From Desulfocapsa sp. (GTDB lineage Bacteria > Desulfobacterota > Desulfobulbia > Desulfobulbales > Desulfocapsaceae): 11,445 nt of DNA. The translations under genes and the position numbers were made by a program. This document shows, in pieces, positions 88 through 11,382 of the stretch; position 1 is the first letter of the stretch, and the number at the start of each line of letters is the position of its first letter. The notes beneath the pieces are model-generated. The model was not told the origin of the DNA, did not search any database, and saw only the letters and a program-made list of their open reading frames with translations. The stretch lies in assembly GCA_029942265.1 (NCBI GenBank), contig JAOZTO010000041.1, forward strand, positions 1 to 11,445, read 5' to 3'.

Positions 88-1413
88 ATGAAATCGTTGC
101 TGACATTTCCAAAAGGTGGAACACATCCACCAGAATTTAAGACGCAAACAGAGAAATGTGCCATTGAAGTAATGGACGTTCCTGATGAGCTAGAACTAAT
201 CCTAGGCCAGCATATTGGAGCCCCCTGTACTCCAATTGTCTCCAGACGTACTGAAGTGAACGAAGGAGATATGGTTGCTGAAGTAACCAAAGGCTTAGGT
301 GTTCCTTTGCATACTCCTGTAGCGGGAAAAGTAAAGGCTCTTGCAACTTCCGGGCATCCGATTCGGGTAACTGCTCCATCAATCACTATTACTGTTGATC
401 ATGATGCGGAACCCAGGAAATATGAGAAACAGGATTGGCAGGGACTTGAAGTTTCAGAGCTGCTTGCCAGAGTGCATAATGCAGGTATTGTCGGTATTGG
501 TGGCGCTGGATTCCCCACTCACGTCAAATTAAGCCCTCCACCAGATTCTCCTGTGGACACACTGCTCTTGAATGGAGCTGAGTGTGAGCCTTATATAACC
601 TCTGATCATCGACAGATGCTTGAGCACAGTACAGAAGTTATTGAGGGTGCAAAGATCATTCTCAAAATACTGGGCATTACAGAATGTCATATAGGCATTG
701 AAAATAATAAAGCGGATGCCATCACAGCAATGAGTCAGGCGGCAGCACAATCATCAGCTGCTGATTGCAATTTTACTGTACAGACCTTGCAGGTAAAGTA
801 TCCGCAAGGATCTGAAAAACAGTTGATCCAGGCTATTACCGGACGTAAAGTACCTGCAATGGCACTTCCTTCTTCGGTTGGAGTGGTTGTTCACAATGTA
901 TCTACCGCTAAAGCCATTTATGATGCAGTGGTGTACAACAAACCGCTCTACGAAAAAGTGGTTACCATTGCCGGAAAAGGAATTAACCGACCAGCTAATC
1001 TTTTGGTGAAAGTCGGTACAAAAATTGGTGATATTGTCGATTTTCTTGGTGGAACAAAACCGGATCTCAGCAAGATTATTATGGGTGGCCCTATGATGGG
1101 TTTTGCTGTGTCTTCCCTTGATATTCCAATTACCAAAACCACATCGGCAATTCTTTTTCTTGCCGAAAGCGAAGTTGATAGCAATCCACATTCACAGTGT
1201 ATTCGTTGTGGATGGTGTATTGATGCCTGTCCCATGGGACTTGAGCCAAAGGAAATTGGGATTTACGTTGAAGCTAATCTTGCAGAAGAAACTGAACCAT
1301 TTGGTGTGTTTGATTGTTTTGAGTGTGGATCGTGTGCCTATGTATGTCCTGCAAAACGACCGCTTGTGCAGTTTATACGATTGGCAAAAATGAAAGCTCG
1401 AAGGCCACAGTAA
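88..1413 (+). CDS. rnfC: RnfC, NADH/FMN- and Fe-S-binding subunit of the Rnf complex
   Basis: This is the peripheral cytoplasmic subunit of the Rnf complex, taken to be the site of NAD(H) exchange. The N-terminus has the family pattern GGTHPPE, QHIGAP and a biotinyl-like loop (TPVAGKVKAL). A glycine-rich nucleotide/FMN loop GIGGAGFPTH starts at residue 136, followed by NGAECEPY at 162-169. Two [4Fe-4S] motifs lie near the C-terminus: C371-x2-C374-x2-C377-x3-C381-P and C410-x2-C413-x2-C416-x3-C420-P. The protein is 441 aa, a compact RnfC without the long C-terminal extension of enterobacterial RsxC. The ATG at 88 matches the family N-terminus and a stop lies in frame at 82-84, although no clear Shine-Dalgarno is visible. 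It is the first Rnf gene here; anything upstream is beyond the window. rnfD follows after 203 nt. Confidence 0.97.
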   Translation: MKSLLTFPKGGTHPPEFKTQTEKCAIEVMDVPDELELILGQHIGAPCTPIVSRRTEVNEGDMVAEVTKGLGVPLHTPVAGKVKALATSGHPIRVTAPSITITVDHDAEPRKYEKQDWQGLEVSELLARVHNAGIVGIGGAGFPTHVKLSPPPDSPVDTLLLNGAECEPYITSDHRQMLEHSTEVIEGAKIILKILGITECHIGIENNKADAITAMSQAAAQSSAADCNFTVQTLQVKYPQGSEKQLIQAITGRKVPAMALPSSVGVVVHNVSTAKAIYDAVVYNKPLYEKVVTIAGKGINRPANLLVKVGTKIGDIVDFLGGTKPDLSKIIMGGPMMGFAVSSLDIPITKTTSAILFLAESEVDSNPHSQCIRCGWCIDACPMGLEPKEIGIYVEANLAEETEPFGVFDCFECGSCAYVCPAKRPLVQFIRLAKMKARRPQ

Positions 1414-1467
1414 CAGAAATTGTAACTATTCAGTAATAATACTAAAACTTACAAAATAGTGTTTTTT

Positions 1468-1473
1468 TATAAT
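1468..1473 (+). promoter_or_regulatory. TATAAT box in the rnfC-rnfD gap (weak promoter candidate)
   Basis: The 203-nt gap between rnfC and rnfD is unusually long for this operon. It contains a perfect TATAAT at 1468-1473 after a T-run, but no convincing -35 element at 15-19 nt upstream. A perfect TTGACA lies at 1483-1488, but no good -10 sits 16-18 nt after it. The two boxes do not pair, so an internal promoter for rnfDGEA is possible but unproven. Confidence 0.2.
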
Positions 1474-1616
1474 GAGTAAGGTTTGACAAGCTCGTAAAAA
1501 GCTAACATGTATGGTGGCTAAGTAAAAAATTTCATATCCGATGCGCAATAATTAACAAATTGCAGCAACGAAGGAGATGAAGAGCTTTTACAACGCCATC
1601 AGGTTTGAGGAGAGTC

Positions 1617-2669
1617 GTGAGTAAAGAGCAAGGTACAAATGATCAGATAGCTGCGACGGGAGGGTGGAAAGTTTCTATTTCCCCTCACGTAAAGAGTAGC
1701 GAGTCGGTCGAAAAAATCATGTGGACTGTTGTGGCCTGTCTTGTACCGCCACTTATTTTATCAGTATTTATTTTTGGAATACAAACCCTCTTCATAACTG
1801 CTGTATCAGTTGTCAGTTGTGTTGTTGTCGAGGTTATAAGCCAAAAAACCCTGGGAAGAGAAGTTACCATAAAAGATGGAAGTGCAGTTCTTACCGGATT
1901 GCTTCTGGCTTTCGTTATTCCACCAGGAGTTTCACCACTTCTACCAGTGCTAGCAGCTATCTTTGCAATTTATATAGGCAAGCATCTCCTTGGTGGCATT
2001 GGATATAACTTCTTCAATCCTGCACTTCTTGGACGTGCATTCCTGCTCGCCTCTTTTCCTGTGGCTATGACTTCTGCTTGGTTATCTCCAGTGGAAGGAT
2101 TTGGCATTTTTTCTTACCTTGGGGCATCAGTTGATGCTGTATCAACAGCGACTCCGCTAGCAGTTATGAAAGAGCAGGGAGTTGCCGCATTTACAGAGAT
2201 GTTTGGTAGCGGTCCTAGTTTGTACGGAAGCTTTTTTCTCGGCTGGCGGCCAGGCTGTATAGGTGAAACTTCCAGTTTCCTTCTCGTTCTTGGTGGCTTG
2301 TATCTTATGTATAGAGGATATATTTCCTGGCAGATTCCGGTGTCGATTCTTGCCACAATCGCTCTCTTGTCCTGGGTATTTGGCGGAGTAACCTATTTCA
2401 GCGGTGATCCTTTATTGGCTATTCTTTCCGGTGGTGCAATACTTGGAGCGTTTTTTATGGCAACGGATTATGTGACAAGTCCGTCTAATAAAACTTCTCA
2501 AATACTTTTTGGTATTGGTATCGGCGCCCTCACGGTTCTTATTCGAATTAAAGGCGGATACCCTGAAGGTATCTGTTATGCGATCCTTCTTATGAATCCT
2601 CTCAGTACTGTATTTGATAGCTGGTTTAAACCAAAGCGTTTTGCTCCTCCAGTGGGAGATGCGAAATGA
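1617..2669 (+). CDS. rnfD: RnfD, membrane subunit with covalent FMN site
   Basis: This is an integral membrane subunit (NqrB/RnfD family) that carries covalently bound FMN in the electron path. I chose the GTG at 1617, preceded by GAGGAG at 1607-1612, over a TTG at 1605 that has no binding site; this gives 350 aa. Multiple hydrophobic segments run through the protein. Family landmarks are NPALLGRAFL (134-143), the flavinylation region D173-A-V-S-T-A-T179-P with Thr179 as the likely FMN acceptor, CIGETSS (214-220), ATDYVTSP (282-289) and GGYPEG (313-318). The stop overlaps the rnfG start (ATGA at 2666-2669), so translation of the pair is probably coupled. The acceptor motif has Thr where the textbook Dxx(S/T)GAT pattern has Gly; this position seems variable in RnfD. 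Confidence 0.96.
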   Translation: MSKEQGTNDQIAATGGWKVSISPHVKSSESVEKIMWTVVACLVPPLILSVFIFGIQTLFITAVSVVSCVVVEVISQKTLGREVTIKDGSAVLTGLLLAFVIPPGVSPLLPVLAAIFAIYIGKHLLGGIGYNFFNPALLGRAFLLASFPVAMTSAWLSPVEGFGIFSYLGASVDAVSTATPLAVMKEQGVAAFTEMFGSGPSLYGSFFLGWRPGCIGETSSFLLVLGGLYLMYRGYISWQIPVSILATIALLSWVFGGVTYFSGDPLLAILSGGAILGAFFMATDYVTSPSNKTSQILFGIGIGALTVLIRIKGGYPEGICYAILLMNPLSTVFDSWFKPKRFAPPVGDAK

Positions 2670-3556
2670 AAGATATCATAACAATTGTAATACGTTTGAC
2701 TGTATCTTGCCTTATGGCGGCAACGGTTATGGGTTTGTGTTTTATCTTTACAAGTAGTGCAAAAAAACACAACGAACATGTTCGAGAACAGCGGGTCATG
2801 TATGAGCTTCTTGGCTATGACGCAGGTGCAGAAATACCTGAATCTGTATCACTGTATGAAATCTACCGGTATGTGGTTTCAAGAGGTACTGGGCAATCTA
2901 TCGCCTATCTCCTGCCTGAAGGAGAAGACGATAATTTTCTCTTTGTGGAAATTGATCTTGACGGAAAATTTCTCAACGCAAAACCCATGGAGATGAGTGA
3001 GCAGGATGCTCTGGAACATGATGTTCGTACCAAGCATATTCAGGCAGATCTTGGTGAAACAGTTCACGCTGAGTTTGCCGATCAAATTTTAATTGCAACC
3101 GATGATGGCAAGCGGACTGCTTATATAATTGGTGGCAAGTTTCAGGGATTCAAAACGTTTATCAACGTGATGATGGCAGTGAAACCTGATTTCAGTATCC
3201 TTGGTCTTGAAATTCTTGAGCATGAAGAAGATCCTGGTCTGGGCGCAGAAATTGAACAAGACTATTTCAAAAACCAGTTCAAGGACAAACCATTCGAAGC
3301 CTTAAAGGTTGTAGATGTTGTAAAAGCTCCTATTCCAGATGATTATCTCAAGGCATTGAATAACAAGGTAAGTGAGGAAGATGTTTTAAAATTCCGTGAA
3401 CAGTACAAAGACAAGGATATTTATGCCATCACAGGCGCTACTATTTCAACCCGAGCGGTGAGTAATGGTGTAAAGGCAATCGTAATGAAGTTTGCTTATC
3501 GTGTAACTGTTTTGGATAAAGTGCTTGAAGCAGAACATATCGCAGTGCCCTTTTAA
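2666..3556 (+). CDS. rnfG: RnfG, extracytoplasmic FMN-binding subunit
   Basis: RnfG (NqrC/RnfG family) is anchored by one N-terminal transmembrane helix (about residues 7-31) with its FMN domain outside the cytoplasmic membrane. Visible signatures are HEEDPGLGAEI (family pattern ETPGLGA) and the C-terminal flavin motif YAITGATIST, where Thr259 is the expected FMN acceptor for ApbE. At 296 aa it is longer than many RnfG proteins, because of an acidic segment at about residues 45-130 that makes it closer in size to NqrC. The Asp normally six residues before the acceptor Thr is Tyr253 here. The start overlaps the rnfD stop by 4 nt; rnfE follows after 18 nt. Confidence 0.95.
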   Translation: MKDIITIVIRLTVSCLMAATVMGLCFIFTSSAKKHNEHVREQRVMYELLGYDAGAEIPESVSLYEIYRYVVSRGTGQSIAYLLPEGEDDNFLFVEIDLDGKFLNAKPMEMSEQDALEHDVRTKHIQADLGETVHAEFADQILIATDDGKRTAYIIGGKFQGFKTFINVMMAVKPDFSILGLEILEHEEDPGLGAEIEQDYFKNQFKDKPFEALKVVDVVKAPIPDDYLKALNNKVSEEDVLKFREQYKDKDIYAITGATISTRAVSNGVKAIVMKFAYRVTVLDKVLEAEHIAVPF

Positions 3557-3574
3557 CCTGTAGAGGAAATTAAC

Positions 3575-4192
3575 GTGGCAAATGATAAATCAAGTATACA
3601 ACTGGTAACCAGGGGTATATTAAGTGAAAATCCAATTTTTAAACTGGCACTTTCCATGTGTCCGGCTGTTGGTATTTCAACTACGGTTATGAATGGAATC
3701 ATGCTCGGAATAGCGGTACTTTTTGTACAGGTTTTTTCCAGTGTAACGATTTCAATCTTCAAAAATATGATTCATCCTCGTATTCGAATACCAACATATA
3801 CCTTAACTATTGCCACATGGGTAACTGTTATTGACCTGGTGTTGGCAGCCTATATGCCTGAAGCATATGCGAAAATGGGTATTTTTGTTAAGCTGATCGT
3901 AGCCTTTGCAATCATCACCATGCGTCTTGAAATGTTTGCCTGTAAAGAACCTGTTAAGGATTCCTTCTGGGATGGCATCGGTATGGGACTTGGCTTTATG
4001 GTTGGTATGATGGCGATTGGCTTTATCAGAGAACTTTTAGGTTCTGGAGCTATTCTTGGACATGACGTTCTTGGCTTCAAACCATTGTTATTCTTCATCC
4101 TTCCAAGTGCTGGTTTTTTTGTGGTGGGATTGATGATGGCATTTTTTAACTGGATAGAAGTCTATTATAAACGCACAAAAGGGTTGCAATAA
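3575..4192 (+). CDS. rnfE: RnfE, core membrane subunit lacking one conserved Cys
   Basis: RnfE (RnfA/RnfE/NqrD family) is one of two homologous six-helix core subunits. It begins at GTG 3575 with AGAGGAA at 3562-3568 as binding site and is 205 aa. The N-terminal half follows the family (NPIFKLALSMCPAVG, then VMNGIMLG), with Cys29 in the first half-helix motif. In the second motif the family usually reads NCIILGRAEAFA, but here the sequence is FAIITMRLEMFA: the cysteine is Ala112, with a non-standard Cys123 eleven residues later. Positive charges near the N-terminus (R and K before the first helix, HPRIRIP after the second) suggest N-terminus inside, opposite to RnfA. The stop overlaps the rnfA ATG by one base (TAATG). 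Confidence 0.94.
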   Translation: MANDKSSIQLVTRGILSENPIFKLALSMCPAVGISTTVMNGIMLGIAVLFVQVFSSVTISIFKNMIHPRIRIPTYTLTIATWVTVIDLVLAAYMPEAYAKMGIFVKLIVAFAIITMRLEMFACKEPVKDSFWDGIGMGLGFMVGMMAIGFIRELLGSGAILGHDVLGFKPLLFFILPSAGFFVVGLMMAFFNWIEVYYKRTKGLQ

Positions 4193-5130
4193 TGGTATTT
4201 GCAAAAACTAAATCTCTCCTGCTGACACTACTATTTTTGTTAGCACCACTTTGTGTTTCTGCGGAAACGCTCGTTGTTGAGCAAAGTTTTAATGGAGATC
4301 ATGAAATTCAGGCCACTTTCGCAACTGCTGCTGACAAAGCTGTTGCCGAAGATATTAGCCGATACACCGTATTCGAAGAACAGGATCCGGATATCAGGCT
4401 GACTATTACATCTGCAAAGCTTGGTGCTGATGGTAAAAATGTATCTCTTCACTTCGCAGATCCTCTTAACACTGCAAACACACATGTGGTTGCAATGAAA
4501 GGTTCTGGAGAAGCTGAACAAACACTCTTTAAAGTGTCGAAATCCTATTTGGGATATCTGTTTGGTATCTTCATTTCTGCGCTCCTGATCAATAACTTTG
4601 TTTTTACCAAGTATTTGGGATTGTGTGTATTTTTTGGTACTTCAAAGAAAAAGAGTACAGCAAAAGGTATGGGCGTTGTGTTTACGCTCGTCATGGTTGT
4701 TTCTGCGATAATGAGTTGGTTTTTCTACCAGTTTATTCTTATACCATACGATCTTAATTTTCTACAGATTGTGGTCTTTATTGGTTTGGTGTCCCTCACT
4801 GTACAGGCGGTGGATACTATTCTAAGAAAGGTAAACCCCATACTGTTCAACTCTTTTGGCGTGTTCCTGGTGCTGGTTATTGCAAACTGTGTCATCATTG
4901 CCGTACCGCTGATTGTTGCTAATAATAATTACAATTTTTTTGAAACGCTTATGCTGGCACTAGGGGCTGGCGGTGGTTTTCTCCTTGCACTCTATTTGAT
5001 GAGTGCAGTGAGTGAACGTCTGCAACTGGCAAATATTCCACCTACATTTAAAGGGCTTCCCATCGCTTTTATAGTAGCTGGACAGTTTGCCATGGCTTTT
5101 CTTGGTTTTTCAGGATTACAGGTTTTTTAG
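4192..5130 (+). CDS. rnfA: RnfA with an N-terminal secreted Ig-like extension
   Basis: The C-terminal part, from about residue 118 (YLGYLFGIFISALLINNFVF) to the end (GFSGLQVF), is a full RnfA core with six helices. It has both conserved membrane cysteines, C145 in LGLCVFFG and C233 in IANCVII, expected to hold a 2Fe-2S cluster with RnfE. RnfA is usually about 190 aa; this protein is 312. The extra N-terminus has a signal peptide (residues 1-24, likely cleavage after CVSA) and then about 90 residues with an alternating beta-strand pattern (IQATFAT, SRYTVFEE, ITSAKLGADGKNVSLHFADP, HVVAMKG). That pattern recalls SbsA/Big-type bacterial Ig-like domains. The SKKKSTAK loop after the first core helix predicts N-terminus outside, so a periplasmic domain fits the topology. 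The frame is continuous and starts directly at the rnfE stop. Confidence 0.93.
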   Translation: MVFAKTKSLLLTLLFLLAPLCVSAETLVVEQSFNGDHEIQATFATAADKAVAEDISRYTVFEEQDPDIRLTITSAKLGADGKNVSLHFADPLNTANTHVVAMKGSGEAEQTLFKVSKSYLGYLFGIFISALLINNFVFTKYLGLCVFFGTSKKKSTAKGMGVVFTLVMVVSAIMSWFFYQFILIPYDLNFLQIVVFIGLVSLTVQAVDTILRKVNPILFNSFGVFLVLVIANCVIIAVPLIVANNNYNFFETLMLALGAGGGFLLALYLMSAVSERLQLANIPPTFKGLPIAFIVAGQFAMAFLGFSGLQVF

Positions 5131-5150
5131 CAGGTGTATTGAATCCGAAG

Positions 5151-5180
5151 TTTACAACAGGGAAGTACTATTTTTAGAAT
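5151..5180 (+). promoter_or_regulatory. Candidate promoter upstream of rnfB
   Basis: TTTACA (5151-5156) and TAGAAT (5175-5180) each match the sigma-70 boxes at five of six positions, with an 18-nt spacer. It sits in the 103-nt gap between rnfA and rnfB and would start transcription near 5187, within the neighbouring inverted repeat. It could give rnfB and apbE expression independent of the upstream genes. The call rests on motif match only. Confidence 0.35.
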
Positions 5181-5182
5181 GA

Positions 5183-5200
5183 CGGTTTTGTCAAAAACCG
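5183..5200 (+). promoter_or_regulatory. Inverted repeat / hairpin between rnfA and rnfB
   Basis: CGGTTTT (5183-5189) and AAAACCG (5194-5200) form a perfect 7-bp stem with loop GTCA. No T-run follows (next bases AATTTGATAA), so it does not look like an intrinsic terminator. It could be an operator placed just after the candidate -10 box, or an RNA stem that affects processing or stability of the rnf message. Confidence 0.45.
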
Positions 5201-5233
5201 AATTTGATAATTGGAATGTGAGAGTAAAAAAAT

Positions 5234-6109
5234 ATGGATCCGGCATTAATTAAAATAGCAATAGGCGGTCTGGTTTTACTTGGCTGTATCGGGCTGTTTT
5301 TTGGCATTGGCCTGGCACTGGCCGCCCACAAGTTCGCAGTTGAAGTGAACCCCCTCATCGAGGAAGTTGTTGAATCTTTACCGATGGCACAGTGTGGTGG
5401 GTGTGGCTTTCCAGGATGTGAAGGCTATGCCATTGCGGTTGTTAATGATCCTGATGTTCCGCCAAATCTCTGTTTTCCCGGTAAAGAACCGGTGGCAAAC
5501 AGGGTAGCAGAGCTAACAGGCAAAAAAATGGTCGCTGTTGAAGATCAGATTGCCCTAGTCCGCTGTTCACGAATCGAGGGACGAGTAAGCCACAAACATG
5601 AATATTATGGTTTTGCCTCGTGTACTGCTGCAAATATCAGTTTTGGTGGGCCATCATCTTGTCAGTATGCCTGTATTGGCCTTGGAGAATGCGCTGATGC
5701 CTGTCCGTTCGATGCAATTGATATGGTGGAAAATTTTCCCATGGTCAATCCGGATAAATGTGTAAGTTGTGGTGTGTGTGTGGCCGCATGTCCTAAAAAC
5801 ATAATTGAATTGCAAACCCTTAAGGCTCGCGTCTATGTGCCGTGTTCTACCAAAGACCTTGGGAAAATTGTAAAAGGTGTGTGTGAAGTTGGGTGTATTG
5901 GATGTAAGATGTGTGTTAAGGCATGCCCAGCTGATGCTGTGAAGTACGAAGGTAATATAATTGTAATAGATCATGCACTGTGCATTGAATATGGGACAGA
6001 ATGTGAAACTGCCTGTGTAACAAAATGTCCACGTGATATATTCAGACACTATGAAGGGCGACAGGCGATAGTTCGAAATGCCGAAGATGGCCTGAAAATG
6101 GCTGGATAA
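5234..6109 (+). CDS. rnfB: RnfB, multi-cluster ferredoxin-type subunit
   Basis: RnfB is the entry point for electrons from reduced ferredoxin. One N-terminal membrane helix (about residues 6-30) anchors a cytoplasmic Fe-S domain. The Fes-type motif is C54-x2-C57-x4-C62 with C80. Ferredoxin-like sets follow: C143/C147/C153/C157, C176-x2-C179-x2-C182-x3-C186-P, C221-x2-C224-x2-C227-x3-C231-P, and an unusual last set C250/C257/C261/C265. That predicts about five clusters, more than the roughly 190-aa gammaproteobacterial RnfB and like the long RnfB proteins of anaerobes. The ATG at 5234 follows a purine-rich stretch (GTGAGAG) rather than a strong Shine-Dalgarno. apbE begins 35 nt after the stop. 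Confidence 0.96.
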   Translation: MDPALIKIAIGGLVLLGCIGLFFGIGLALAAHKFAVEVNPLIEEVVESLPMAQCGGCGFPGCEGYAIAVVNDPDVPPNLCFPGKEPVANRVAELTGKKMVAVEDQIALVRCSRIEGRVSHKHEYYGFASCTAANISFGGPSSCQYACIGLGECADACPFDAIDMVENFPMVNPDKCVSCGVCVAACPKNIIELQTLKARVYVPCSTKDLGKIVKGVCEVGCIGCKMCVKACPADAVKYEGNIIVIDHALCIEYGTECETACVTKCPRDIFRHYEGRQAIVRNAEDGLKMAG

Positions 6110-6144
6110 CTGCCGCTTACTAATTTTTTAGATTGGAAACTGAT

Positions 6145-7194
6145 ATGAAAACTCCTGAAACTTCCTGTGATCACAAAAGAAGATCATTTTTGAAACTCTC
6201 CGGCCTACTTGGCCTTGGTGCTGCGTCTGCAACTCTTTTACCAGCTGAAAGCGCAGAAGCCTTTCTCTTTGGTAATAAAGAATATAAGGTTACCAAAACC
6301 CGTTTATCCATGGGCACATTTGTTGCTATGACTGCAATACACTCGTCACGTGATGAGGCAGAACAGGCAATTGGTCTGGCATTTGAAGAAATTGACAGAT
6401 TAAGTGCTTTGTTGAGCCATTATGAATCCAACTCAGCAATTGGGGCATTGAATACATCTGGTACTCTTGAAGGGCCACCGCAAGAAGTTATCGAACTTAT
6501 TGCACGCTCTCTCTACTATAACCGTGAAACCAACGGTGCTTTTGATATTACAGTAAAGCCTCTTGTGGATCTCTATAAGAACAGCTTTGCGGCTGATACA
6601 AAACCTACTGAAAATGAAATTAGCCGTACTTTAAAGCTTGTAAACAGTGCCAAATTGAAGTTTCAGGGAGGATCACTTGCCTTTGCTGACAGTGATATGG
6701 GTATAACTCTTGATGGTATTGCCAAAGGGTATATTGTTGATAAGGCATCTGATGTGTTAGCTGCAAATGGTGTCGCTAATCACCTGATCAATGCTGGTGG
6801 TGATATTCGTACAAGTGGTCTTGCAGCCAGAGGAAAAGCGTGGACAGTAGCCATACAAGATCCTAATAAATCAAAAGAATATCCTGATATTATTACTATG
6901 AAAGATGGTGCCATTGCCACATCCGGTAATTACGAAATTTACTATGATAATGAAAAATTATTTCATCATATTATAAATGGTCGTACCGGACACTCTCCAC
7001 ATCTGTCTAGTAGTGTAACGGTGCTTGCCCCAACAGTGATGGACGCAGATGCCATGGCGACCAGTGTCTTTGTAATGGAACCTGTCGTTGGTGTGCAGTT
7101 TGTTAATAATCAGCCGGAATGCGAATGCTTCGTTGTGGGAAGCAAGGGTGACGTTAGCCAATCGCGTGGATGGGATACCGTCACAAACAGCTGA
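6145..7194 (+). CDS. apbE: ApbE, Tat-exported FAD:protein FMN transferase
   Basis: ApbE transfers FMN from FAD to Thr residues of RnfD and RnfG outside the cytoplasmic membrane. I chose the ATG at 6145 (349 aa) over an upstream TTG at 6133. A twin-arginine signal is clear: KRRSFLK with R12-R13, then a hydrophobic stretch and a possible AEA cleavage site. ApbE landmarks in order: GTFVAM, LLSHYESNSAIGALN, GAFDITVKPL (131-140), DGIAKGY (190-196), NAGGDIRTSG (216-225), HHIINGRTG (275-283) and DADAMATSVFVM (300-311, metal-binding region). The usual HIIDPRTG reads IINGRTG here, with Gly instead of Pro. There is no lipobox. It lies 35 nt after rnfB and is the last gene of the cluster; its stop is 3 nt from the stop of the convergent ThDP enzyme gene. 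Confidence 0.95.
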   Translation: MKTPETSCDHKRRSFLKLSGLLGLGAASATLLPAESAEAFLFGNKEYKVTKTRLSMGTFVAMTAIHSSRDEAEQAIGLAFEEIDRLSALLSHYESNSAIGALNTSGTLEGPPQEVIELIARSLYYNRETNGAFDITVKPLVDLYKNSFAADTKPTENEISRTLKLVNSAKLKFQGGSLAFADSDMGITLDGIAKGYIVDKASDVLAANGVANHLINAGGDIRTSGLAARGKAWTVAIQDPNKSKEYPDIITMKDGAIATSGNYEIYYDNEKLFHHIINGRTGHSPHLSSSVTVLAPTVMDADAMATSVFVMEPVVGVQFVNNQPECECFVVGSKGDVSQSRGWDTVTNS

Positions 7195-9813: not shown

Positions 9814-11382
9814 ATGACGAATACGAAAGCCAGAAAAACAAATATAGACACCCTTCCTTTTCAGGAAGGGTGTAACACTAGGCACTTCTTCACAGGTGGG
9901 GGGCGTGAAGCTATTTTAAATGATATTAAGATAGCGCTTAATGACAAGGTGGAGCTCATTACTTTGATAGGCGAAGAAGGTAGTGGCAAAACCATGCTTT
10001 GTACTATGCTGAAAGAACAATGGGATACACAAAGCAAAGTCATTTATCTCCCTCAGGTTATAGAATCTTTTGAAGATATTGTTCGAGTGGTTGCTCAGGA
10101 ATGTGATGTTCTTTATCCGATTGACACGACGCGAGCTGATGCGAAGCAAATTTTCCTGGATATAGTGGCATCGATACAGGCACAAGGGGATAGTCTGATC
10201 TTTCTCTGTGATGAGGCCGAAAAAATGTATCTAGCCACCCTAGAAAGGATGAGGAAAATTATTGACGAGGTGAATGACCAGGGAGGAGGTGTTCAGATGC
10301 TCTTGGTGGGGAGGAAAAGCCTCACCACAAGTTTGGAGCAGCTAGATCTTTGTGACTTTAAGCAAATTCACGAAAAACAATTTTTTCTTTCTGCGCTCGA
10401 CGATAATGAAACGTGGAATTATTTGAATTTTTGTGTGCAGTCACATCGTGGAACAGAGCAGCAGGAAGTTTTTACCAGAGAAGCTACTGCAAAGATCGCT
10501 TCAATGAGCAGAGGCAATCTGCGAATGATAAATATGCATGCAGATGAATCACTCCAGTCTTCTGATGCAGACACTTCATTTCTTGTTCTTTTTGATCATG
10601 TTAAAGACGATGAATCCGATGCTGGTCTGCGTTCTTCCGGTACTGGGTTTTTATCTCGAATCCCAAATCTTGTTAAGTATGGTATTGGGGGTGTAGCAAT
10701 TGCAGGTGCATTGCTGCTGATTTTTTTGTTTACCACTAAGGAAAAGTTACCGGTAGCTAGTATTGAGACGGAGCAGGGTGGTAGTCCTGGTGTTGCTGTA
10801 ATTGAACCAATTGCTGAGAAGGCAGTGGGAATTGTAACAGAAATTGCCCCAAACGTTGTGGAAATAGTTGTTGAACCTGATCCACCGCAAAATGAAGCTG
10901 AAAAAGTAGAGGATGTTTCGAGATCAATAGTTGCGATTTCTCCAGTAGAGCTTGTTGTGGAGCCAACTGTCGATTCAGAAACTATGGAACCTGCTAACCC
11001 GTCTTCTCTCGCTGAAACAAAACCAGCTGTATCCAGATTGGGAAAAGACCCTATTCTGGGACGATTTTTTAGTAAGGGGGAAAAATGGTTGGACGGTGAA
11101 ATGAATTCTGAATTCAGTATCCAGCTTATGGTGTTGCAGTCAGATAATGCTATGGAAAACCTTAAACGAATGATCCTGCAACCTGATTATCAGGCAGTGG
11201 CAGATAAGCTGATCATATTGAAGAAGCCATCGTCCCCACCAGTGTTACTCGTTTTCTATGGAGTGTATCCGAGTATGGCGGTAGCCAGGAGTGTGCGAAA
11301 CAATATGCCTTTATTTCTTCGTGATAGGCATCCGTACCCCATATCTGTGCGAGGTGCTGTTGAAAAGGTTCGTGTTGAGTAA
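9814..11382 (+). CDS. ExeA-like AAA ATPase with transmembrane anchor and SPOR domain
   Basis: The N-terminal domain resembles ExeA/MshM-type ATPases: Walker A GEEGSGKT (53-60), Walker B LIFLCDEAE (128-136), LLVGRKSL (163-170) and SRGNLRMIN (232-240, sensor-2-like). A single membrane helix follows at about 288-307 (YGIGGVAIAGALLLIFLF). Next comes a low-complexity linker rich in Val, Glu and Pro (about 310-410), then a SPOR-like domain at about 433-515 (FSIQLMVLQSD, LLVFYGVYPSMAVARS), the fold that binds denuded peptidoglycan. The topology implies ATPase inside and SPOR in the periplasm, as in E. coli DamX. Likely roles are assembly of a pilus or secretion apparatus, or cell division; context does not decide. 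The ATG at 9814 is preceded by GTAAGG with 7-nt spacing. A possible gene starts 8 nt downstream. Confidence 0.87.
   Translation: MTNTKARKTNIDTLPFQEGCNTRHFFTGGGREAILNDIKIALNDKVELITLIGEEGSGKTMLCTMLKEQWDTQSKVIYLPQVIESFEDIVRVVAQECDVLYPIDTTRADAKQIFLDIVASIQAQGDSLIFLCDEAEKMYLATLERMRKIIDEVNDQGGGVQMLLVGRKSLTTSLEQLDLCDFKQIHEKQFFLSALDDNETWNYLNFCVQSHRGTEQQEVFTREATAKIASMSRGNLRMINMHADESLQSSDADTSFLVLFDHVKDDESDAGLRSSGTGFLSRIPNLVKYGIGGVAIAGALLLIFLFTTKEKLPVASIETEQGGSPGVAVIEPIAEKAVGIVTEIAPNVVEIVVEPDPPQNEAEKVEDVSRSIVAISPVELVVEPTVDSETMEPANPSSLAETKPAVSRLGKDPILGRFFSKGEKWLDGEMNSEFSIQLMVLQSDNAMENLKRMILQPDYQAVADKLIILKKPSSPPVLLVFYGVYPSMAVARSVRNNMPLFLRDRHPYPISVRGAVEKVRVE

Follow-up and report, generated by a model that had tools for sequence, protein, structure and literature searches.

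What does an immunoglobulin (Ig)-like domain do at the N-terminus of RnfA? This question is raised by a complete rnf operon on a contig of a Desulfocapsa sp. (JAOZTO010000041.1, assembly GCA_029942265.1), which we analysed as one stretch of 11,445 nt (the window). Rnf conserves energy in anaerobes, where it is a central pump, and how its periplasmic flavin subunit moves is one of the least settled points of the mechanism. We propose, with a probability of roughly 45%, that the window encodes a distinct Rnf subtype whose periplasmic face has been rebuilt, and that the Ig-like domain of RnfA, predicted to be exported, would serve the mobile head of RnfG as a fixed dock or guide.

The extended RnfA

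The rnfA open reading frame (ORF) is uninterrupted, and its ATG overlaps the rnfE stop codon. A preliminary description of this DNA, made from the letters alone, had placed a secreted Ig-like extension of RnfA at 4192-4545. That span is correct and equals residues 1-118. The protein divides as follows.

4192..5130, + strand: rnfA with N-terminal extension, 312 amino acids (aa) (profile scans, match to solved chains)
4192..4263, + strand: putative signal peptide, residues 1-24, with a signal peptidase I-like end, CVSA followed by E (read by eye; aligned ends in relatives)
4264..4542, + strand: extra region, a Big_5/SbsC-like Ig domain, residues 25-117 (predicted fold)
4384..4395, + strand: DPDI motif of the Ig-like domain, residues 65-68, with P66, D67 and I68 invariant in 59 aligned sequences
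4543..5127, + strand: RnfA membrane core, residues 118-312, with C145 and C233 (PF02508, alignments, solved chains)

The core is complete, as had been claimed. PF02508 spans residues 124-309 (E 6.7e-43, 147.2 bits against a cut-off of 23.8), and C145 and C233, which we take to be the cluster-binding cysteines, are conserved without exception in alignments of 30 and of 59 sequences. The nearest solved chains are all RnfA (7zc6_A, E 1.4e-45; 9eri_A, 8.3e-44; 8ahx_A, 7.6e-39), with weaker matches to NqrE (5.2e-32) and RnfE (7.9e-7 to 6.9e-6). TIGR01943 (rnfA) is the top model match at 192.3 bits yet lies under its cut-off of 229.3, and we do not claim membership of that model. RnfA and NqrE proteins without the extension measured 190-206 aa in our comparison, plus one of 226 aa. 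The frames L104, L108 and L112, of 253-255 aa, were considered as further extensions but counted as non-extended, their upstream parts being unlike the domain and resembling over-long start choices. Another locus (L154) pairs an RnfA frame of 226 aa with an RnfG-like frame of 410 aa and resembles neither type.

For residues 25-117, AlphaFold2 (AF2) predicts a seven-strand Ig-like fold that matches the structure of SbsC, in line with the fold first suggested. In the AF2 model of the whole protein the membrane core is poor (mean predicted local distance difference test score, pLDDT, 57.7), and we draw no conclusion from it. The window domain itself has no family match at E<=1. Of 20 aligned members, half (10) match PF13205 (Big_5), the best at 1.3e-5, and the domain of locus L030 exceeds the cut-off for that family (27.8 versus 23.6 bits). 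Across 97 sequences of extended RnfA, a count that includes three repeat copies, an extension of 86-99 aa could be aligned. The motif PD followed by I, L, V or M is kept in 65 of the 72 extended rows of a wider tree and is not kept in seven. Among 32 close pairs, some of them near saturation, the median ratio of nonsynonymous to synonymous substitution rates (dN/dS) was 0.20 for the Ig part (30 pairs computable, three of them slightly over 0.5); the core gave 0.048 (32 pairs) and the signal peptide 0.50 (27 pairs computable). A profile search for stand-alone homologues of the domain, which covered lengths from 0.55 to 1.75 times that of the query, returned 12 short proteins, and the nine that were read appear to be fragments of extended RnfA, truncated or frame-shifted.

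These results bear on whether the fusion is real. Translation of RnfA could in principle begin near residue 118, with the upstream frame an accident; a TTG (L120) and an ATG (M102) would offer starts. Against this stand the extension aligned in 97 sequences, purifying selection, the invariant PDI and the specific match to the SbsC fold, and we rule out a spurious upstream frame for all practical purposes.

The putative signal peptide ends, by eye, in LCVSA followed by ET. At the aligned boundary an AxA-like end is found in 76 of the 97 rows (our own reading plus a pattern), a lipobox by pattern in 14 (L064 among them doubtful) and neither type in 7, of which three (L073, L082 and its copy L133) likewise end in Gly-Cys. 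All 14 distinct loci of one clade (L073-L082, L128, L130, L131 and L132), some of them titled Desulfobacterales, have Gly-Cys at the end of the hydrophobic stretch. This lipobox-like end suggests a lipidated membrane pump subunit. From these two kinds of signal end, export of the extension, as originally proposed, is the predicted outcome.

Some relatives carry RnfE, the Ig domain and RnfA in a single chain of 520-538 aa (L030, 676-2289; P0162, P0163, P0167, P0172, P0176 and P0180). Five of these proteins were read, and P0167 was assigned by length and place in the tree. Two PF02508 stretches were confirmed in each of P0162, P0180 and L030, and a hydrophobic stretch separates RnfE from the extended RnfA in L030 and in the group of proteins of about 523 aa. 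Such fusions apparently arose in two separate lineages.

Enlarged RnfG and the spread of the subtype

The second unusual protein of the operon is RnfG.

2666..3556, + strand: rnfG, 296 aa, an enlarged (NqrC-sized) flavin mononucleotide (FMN)-binding subunit (profile scans, alignment, AF2)
2813..3055, + strand: extra N-terminal beta domain of RnfG, about residues 50-130 (alignment with ordinary RnfG; AF2)
3302..3415, + strand: second RnfG insertion, about residues 213-250, before the TGATIS motif (alignment)

For the extra N-terminal domain, AF2 gives a mean pLDDT of 90.6, with strands at 61-73, 76-85, 90-96 and 102-109 and a helix at 118-129. Every locus with an extended RnfA has an enlarged RnfG, except one in which rnfG is split. 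This pairing makes a partner inside the complex the more economical explanation.

Within the order to which the window belongs, 104 of 193 genomes have an RnfA/NqrE match at 1e-20, and 66 of the 193, the source genome included, encode a full-length extended RnfA. The extension is not missing from close relatives. In three more genomes (G517, G567 and G474) a contig end truncates the extended RnfA; G442 encodes a short sister. A draw across the phylum gave RnfA/NqrE matches in 148 of 395 genomes; among the matches listed, 13 of the 395 are extended, and no other row aligns upstream of RnfA residue 102. That draw lacked close relatives and had raised the idea that the window contig was a contaminant, which was dropped once the order-level search was done. 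From 115 related loci 80 were kept, and all 80 align from residue 43 or earlier; this set is biased to the extension, which contained two of the six search patterns.

The preliminary description had wondered whether the extension marks a distinct Rnf subtype, and in both trees that we built the extended RnfA forms one clade. In a 72-row tree of RnfD, RnfE and the RnfA core, all 37 extended rows fall on one side of a branch with support of 100/99. When 64 proteins were added to a core tree (104 rows; P0147-P0190 being the second half of the extended family), the extended rows again formed one clade (100/97). P0186 and P0194 fall inside it and look like fragments. The short sisters in the core tree are L158, P0191-P0193 and P0195-P0196.

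Possible roles of the Ig-like domain

By sequence, the window RnfA is a putative signal peptide and a compact predicted Ig-like domain joined almost without a linker to the core, with an enlarged RnfG alongside. In two cryo-electron microscopy studies, RnfG is located at the RnfA/E cavity (PMC11889175) and close to the N-terminal helix of RnfA (PMC9588780). The Ig domain would be exported and would sit on this helix, which is predicted to face outward. Contact between the Ig domain and RnfG is likely on geometry alone, since the domain joins the helix with almost no linker. There it may favour or limit the position in which the FMN of RnfG takes an electron from the [2Fe-2S] cluster that lies between RnfA and RnfE; having taken the electron, the FMN would swing to RnfD. 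The extra domain of RnfG would provide the counterpart surface to the Ig domain. We consider it unlikely that the two added domains go further and form a gate, peculiar to this subtype, that times the flavin swing and thereby governs the pump's direction or its ion-to-electron coupling, which would make this a mechanistically separate class of Rnf and not a decorated one.

Several observations weigh against a dock for RnfG. Over 64 complete loci, the partial distance correlation with the RnfA extension is 0.34 for the RnfG insert and 0.19 and 0.17 for other parts of RnfG, but 0.37 for the cytoplasmic RnfC and 0.29 for RnfD. Because these values are comparable, the tracking is not specific, and we rejected co-evolution of the extension with RnfG in particular. 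Both traits lie on one stem of the tree, so their co-occurrence counts as a single event, not many. The locus adjoining the extended rows (L158; 100/100, with a long-branch warning there) has both a short RnfA and a short RnfG, and it is the only sister locus in which RnfG was seen. In six operons read as Na+-translocating NADH:quinone oxidoreductase (Na+-NQR), NqrC is also long (260-278 aa) beside an NqrE of normal length; an NqrC-sized head therefore needs no Ig domain. Seven proteins (P0153, P0168, P0170, P0183, P0187, P0189 and P0190) have a shorter related domain and no visible signal peptide, which speaks against export, with start-site errors as a possible cause. Finally, the outward orientation of the RnfA N-terminus is predicted from the lysine-rich loop after helix 1, whose charge fits an N-terminus outside, from the putative signal peptide and from a 1999 study in which Saaf and co-workers reportedly placed this N-terminus outside. 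RnfA and RnfE are described as mutually inverted in the membrane (PMC12174285).

Instead of guiding RnfG, the domain might aid stability or assembly, in that a signal peptide together with an Ig domain that folds fast would hold helix 1 of RnfA in its outward orientation, or anchor the complex in the envelope (through lipid in the lipobox group), with no direct part in electron transfer. This account, which we regard as rather less probable, is favoured by a domain that is retained while the signal type varies between AxA-like and lipobox-like, by the structural nature of the S-layer Ig modules that are its nearest folds, by the preserved order in the RnfE-Ig-RnfA frames and by faster evolution of the domain than of the core. 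It does not explain why ordinary RnfA needs no such aid, why RnfG is enlarged in parallel or why PDI is invariant in 59 sequences, which is beyond what a spacer requires. Docking of an external periplasmic redox partner, a cytochrome or other protein, would open a periplasmic electron exit or entry. The predicted periplasmic position suits this idea, as does the presence among the fold matches of 5n1t, a complex of CopC with flavocytochrome c. An ORF with at least three CxxCH motifs lies within 4 kb of 15 of the 40 ordinary Rnf/Nqr loci of the phylum, which also suits it, whereas this holds for just 2 of 94 distinct extended loci (2 of 97 with repeat copies; flanks differ in length between loci, and a partner could be encoded elsewhere) and for none of the six loci read as NQR. 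Upstream of rnfC stands a dihydroorotate dehydrogenase-like gene in 34 of 78 loci and a RibF-like gene in 6 of 78, which also argues against it. The rarity of multihaem ORFs near extended loci lowers the cytochrome proposal of the preliminary description to a weak candidate, and an external partner of any kind seems improbable. Least plausible among these roles is protection from sulfide, oxygen or other small oxidants and reductants, with the domain shielding the periplasmic flavin or the [2Fe-2S] cluster. The place that the domain would occupy beside the RnfA/E cavity would allow it, and several hosts of related loci are, judging from their genus names, presumably sulfate reducers; against it, the other Rnf of the same genome lacks the domain. 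The dock for RnfG is our preferred reading.

The operon and known systems

ORF listing together with Pfam and NCBIfam profile scans gave the operon order rnfC-D-G-E-A-B-apbE (88-7194, + strand), so that subunits C, D, G, E, A and B, the complete set, are encoded in a single operon. Besides rnfG and rnfA it contains the following genes.

88..1413, + strand: rnfC (profile scans)
1605..2669, + strand: rnfD, with a TTG start as listed, the true start perhaps downstream (profile scans)
3575..4192, + strand: rnfE, with a GTG start as listed (profile scans)
5234..6109, + strand: rnfB, polyferredoxin type (profile scans)
6133..7194, + strand: apbE, FAD:protein FMN transferase of the ApbE family (PF02424 above cut-off; NCBIfam ApbE model below cut-off)

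RnfC passes TIGR01945, RnfD passes TIGR01946 and RnfB passes NF005503. RnfG does not reach the TIGR01947 cut-off (74.6 against 102 bits), and RnfE lies below that of TIGR01948 (174.7 against 213.4 bits) while passing NF009070 (212.2 versus 184). That RnfA, RnfE and RnfG fall below the cut-offs of TIGR01943, TIGR01948 and TIGR01947 could help explain why this type of Rnf was overlooked. ApbE begins with a twin-arginine-like signal, RRSFLKLSG, for which the Pfam TAT_signal match is below cut-off. Farther along the window, 9814-11382 encodes an AAA_22 ATPase whose middle is long and variable and whose C-terminal part is of no recognised kind; its top NCBIfam match is TIGR03015 (PEP-CTERM-associated ATPase), far under the cut-off.

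The same genome has a second Rnf (L127, G000:C141:1-6000) with an ordinary RnfA of 191 aa and RnfG of 196 aa, and thus two Rnf types coexist in one genome. A nearby ORF with eight CxxCH motifs is cut by the end of that stretch. In 34 of 78 loci with a complete rnfC and an extended rnfA, a dihydroorotate dehydrogenase-like gene precedes rnfC by about 91 bp (median) on the same strand, and in 6 of the 78 (two being copies of one locus) a RibF-like gene is there instead; both names come from reading the sequences.

Relatives with at least 70% identity include Desulfopila, Desulforhopalus, Desulfobulbus and Desulfosediminicola, plus many broadly named metagenome-assembled genomes. Desulfopila is classified in Desulfocapsaceae, Desulfobulbales. 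The legend of a published figure, S9 Fig of PMC10553843, says that Desulfobulbales lack Rnf. If the order is indeed Desulfobulbales, the complete Rnf predicted here and the extended RnfA in 66 of its 193 genomes would contradict that statement and alter the picture of sulfate reducers. We found no mention of an Ig domain on RnfA in the mainly open-access literature, including the accessible parts of PMC12174285, PMC11889175, PMC10553843, PMC9588780, PMC4014512 and PMC8170396. Many sulfate reducers carry an Rnf with an Ig-extended RnfA and an enlarged RnfG, pointing to a distinct version of the pump. This natural variant, with a periplasmic domain added to one partner and the other partner enlarged, would offer a direct handle on the flavin-movement step.

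Like the RnfA of Clostridium tetanomorphum (7zc6_A), Acetobacterium woodii (9eri_A) and Azotobacter vinelandii (8ahx_A), the window protein has a PF02508 core with two conserved cysteines, and it is likewise encoded with RnfB, C, D, E and G and ApbE. Unlike it, those chains are 190-191 aa long without an N-terminal domain and match only window residues 123-310. The NqrE of Na+-NQR (198 aa in 7xk3, 200-203 aa in the six loci read as NQR) also lacks the extension; unlike Na+-NQR, the window operon has RnfB and RnfC, and the tree separates it from those six loci. The match to the copper proteins CopC and PcoC is much weaker than that to SbsC and near the chance-best level. The S-layer Ig modules (SbsC, SbsB and Sap; Pfam Big_5) are parts of large surface proteins, whereas the window has a single predicted domain of this kind, fused to a respiratory membrane subunit and bearing an invariant PDI motif.
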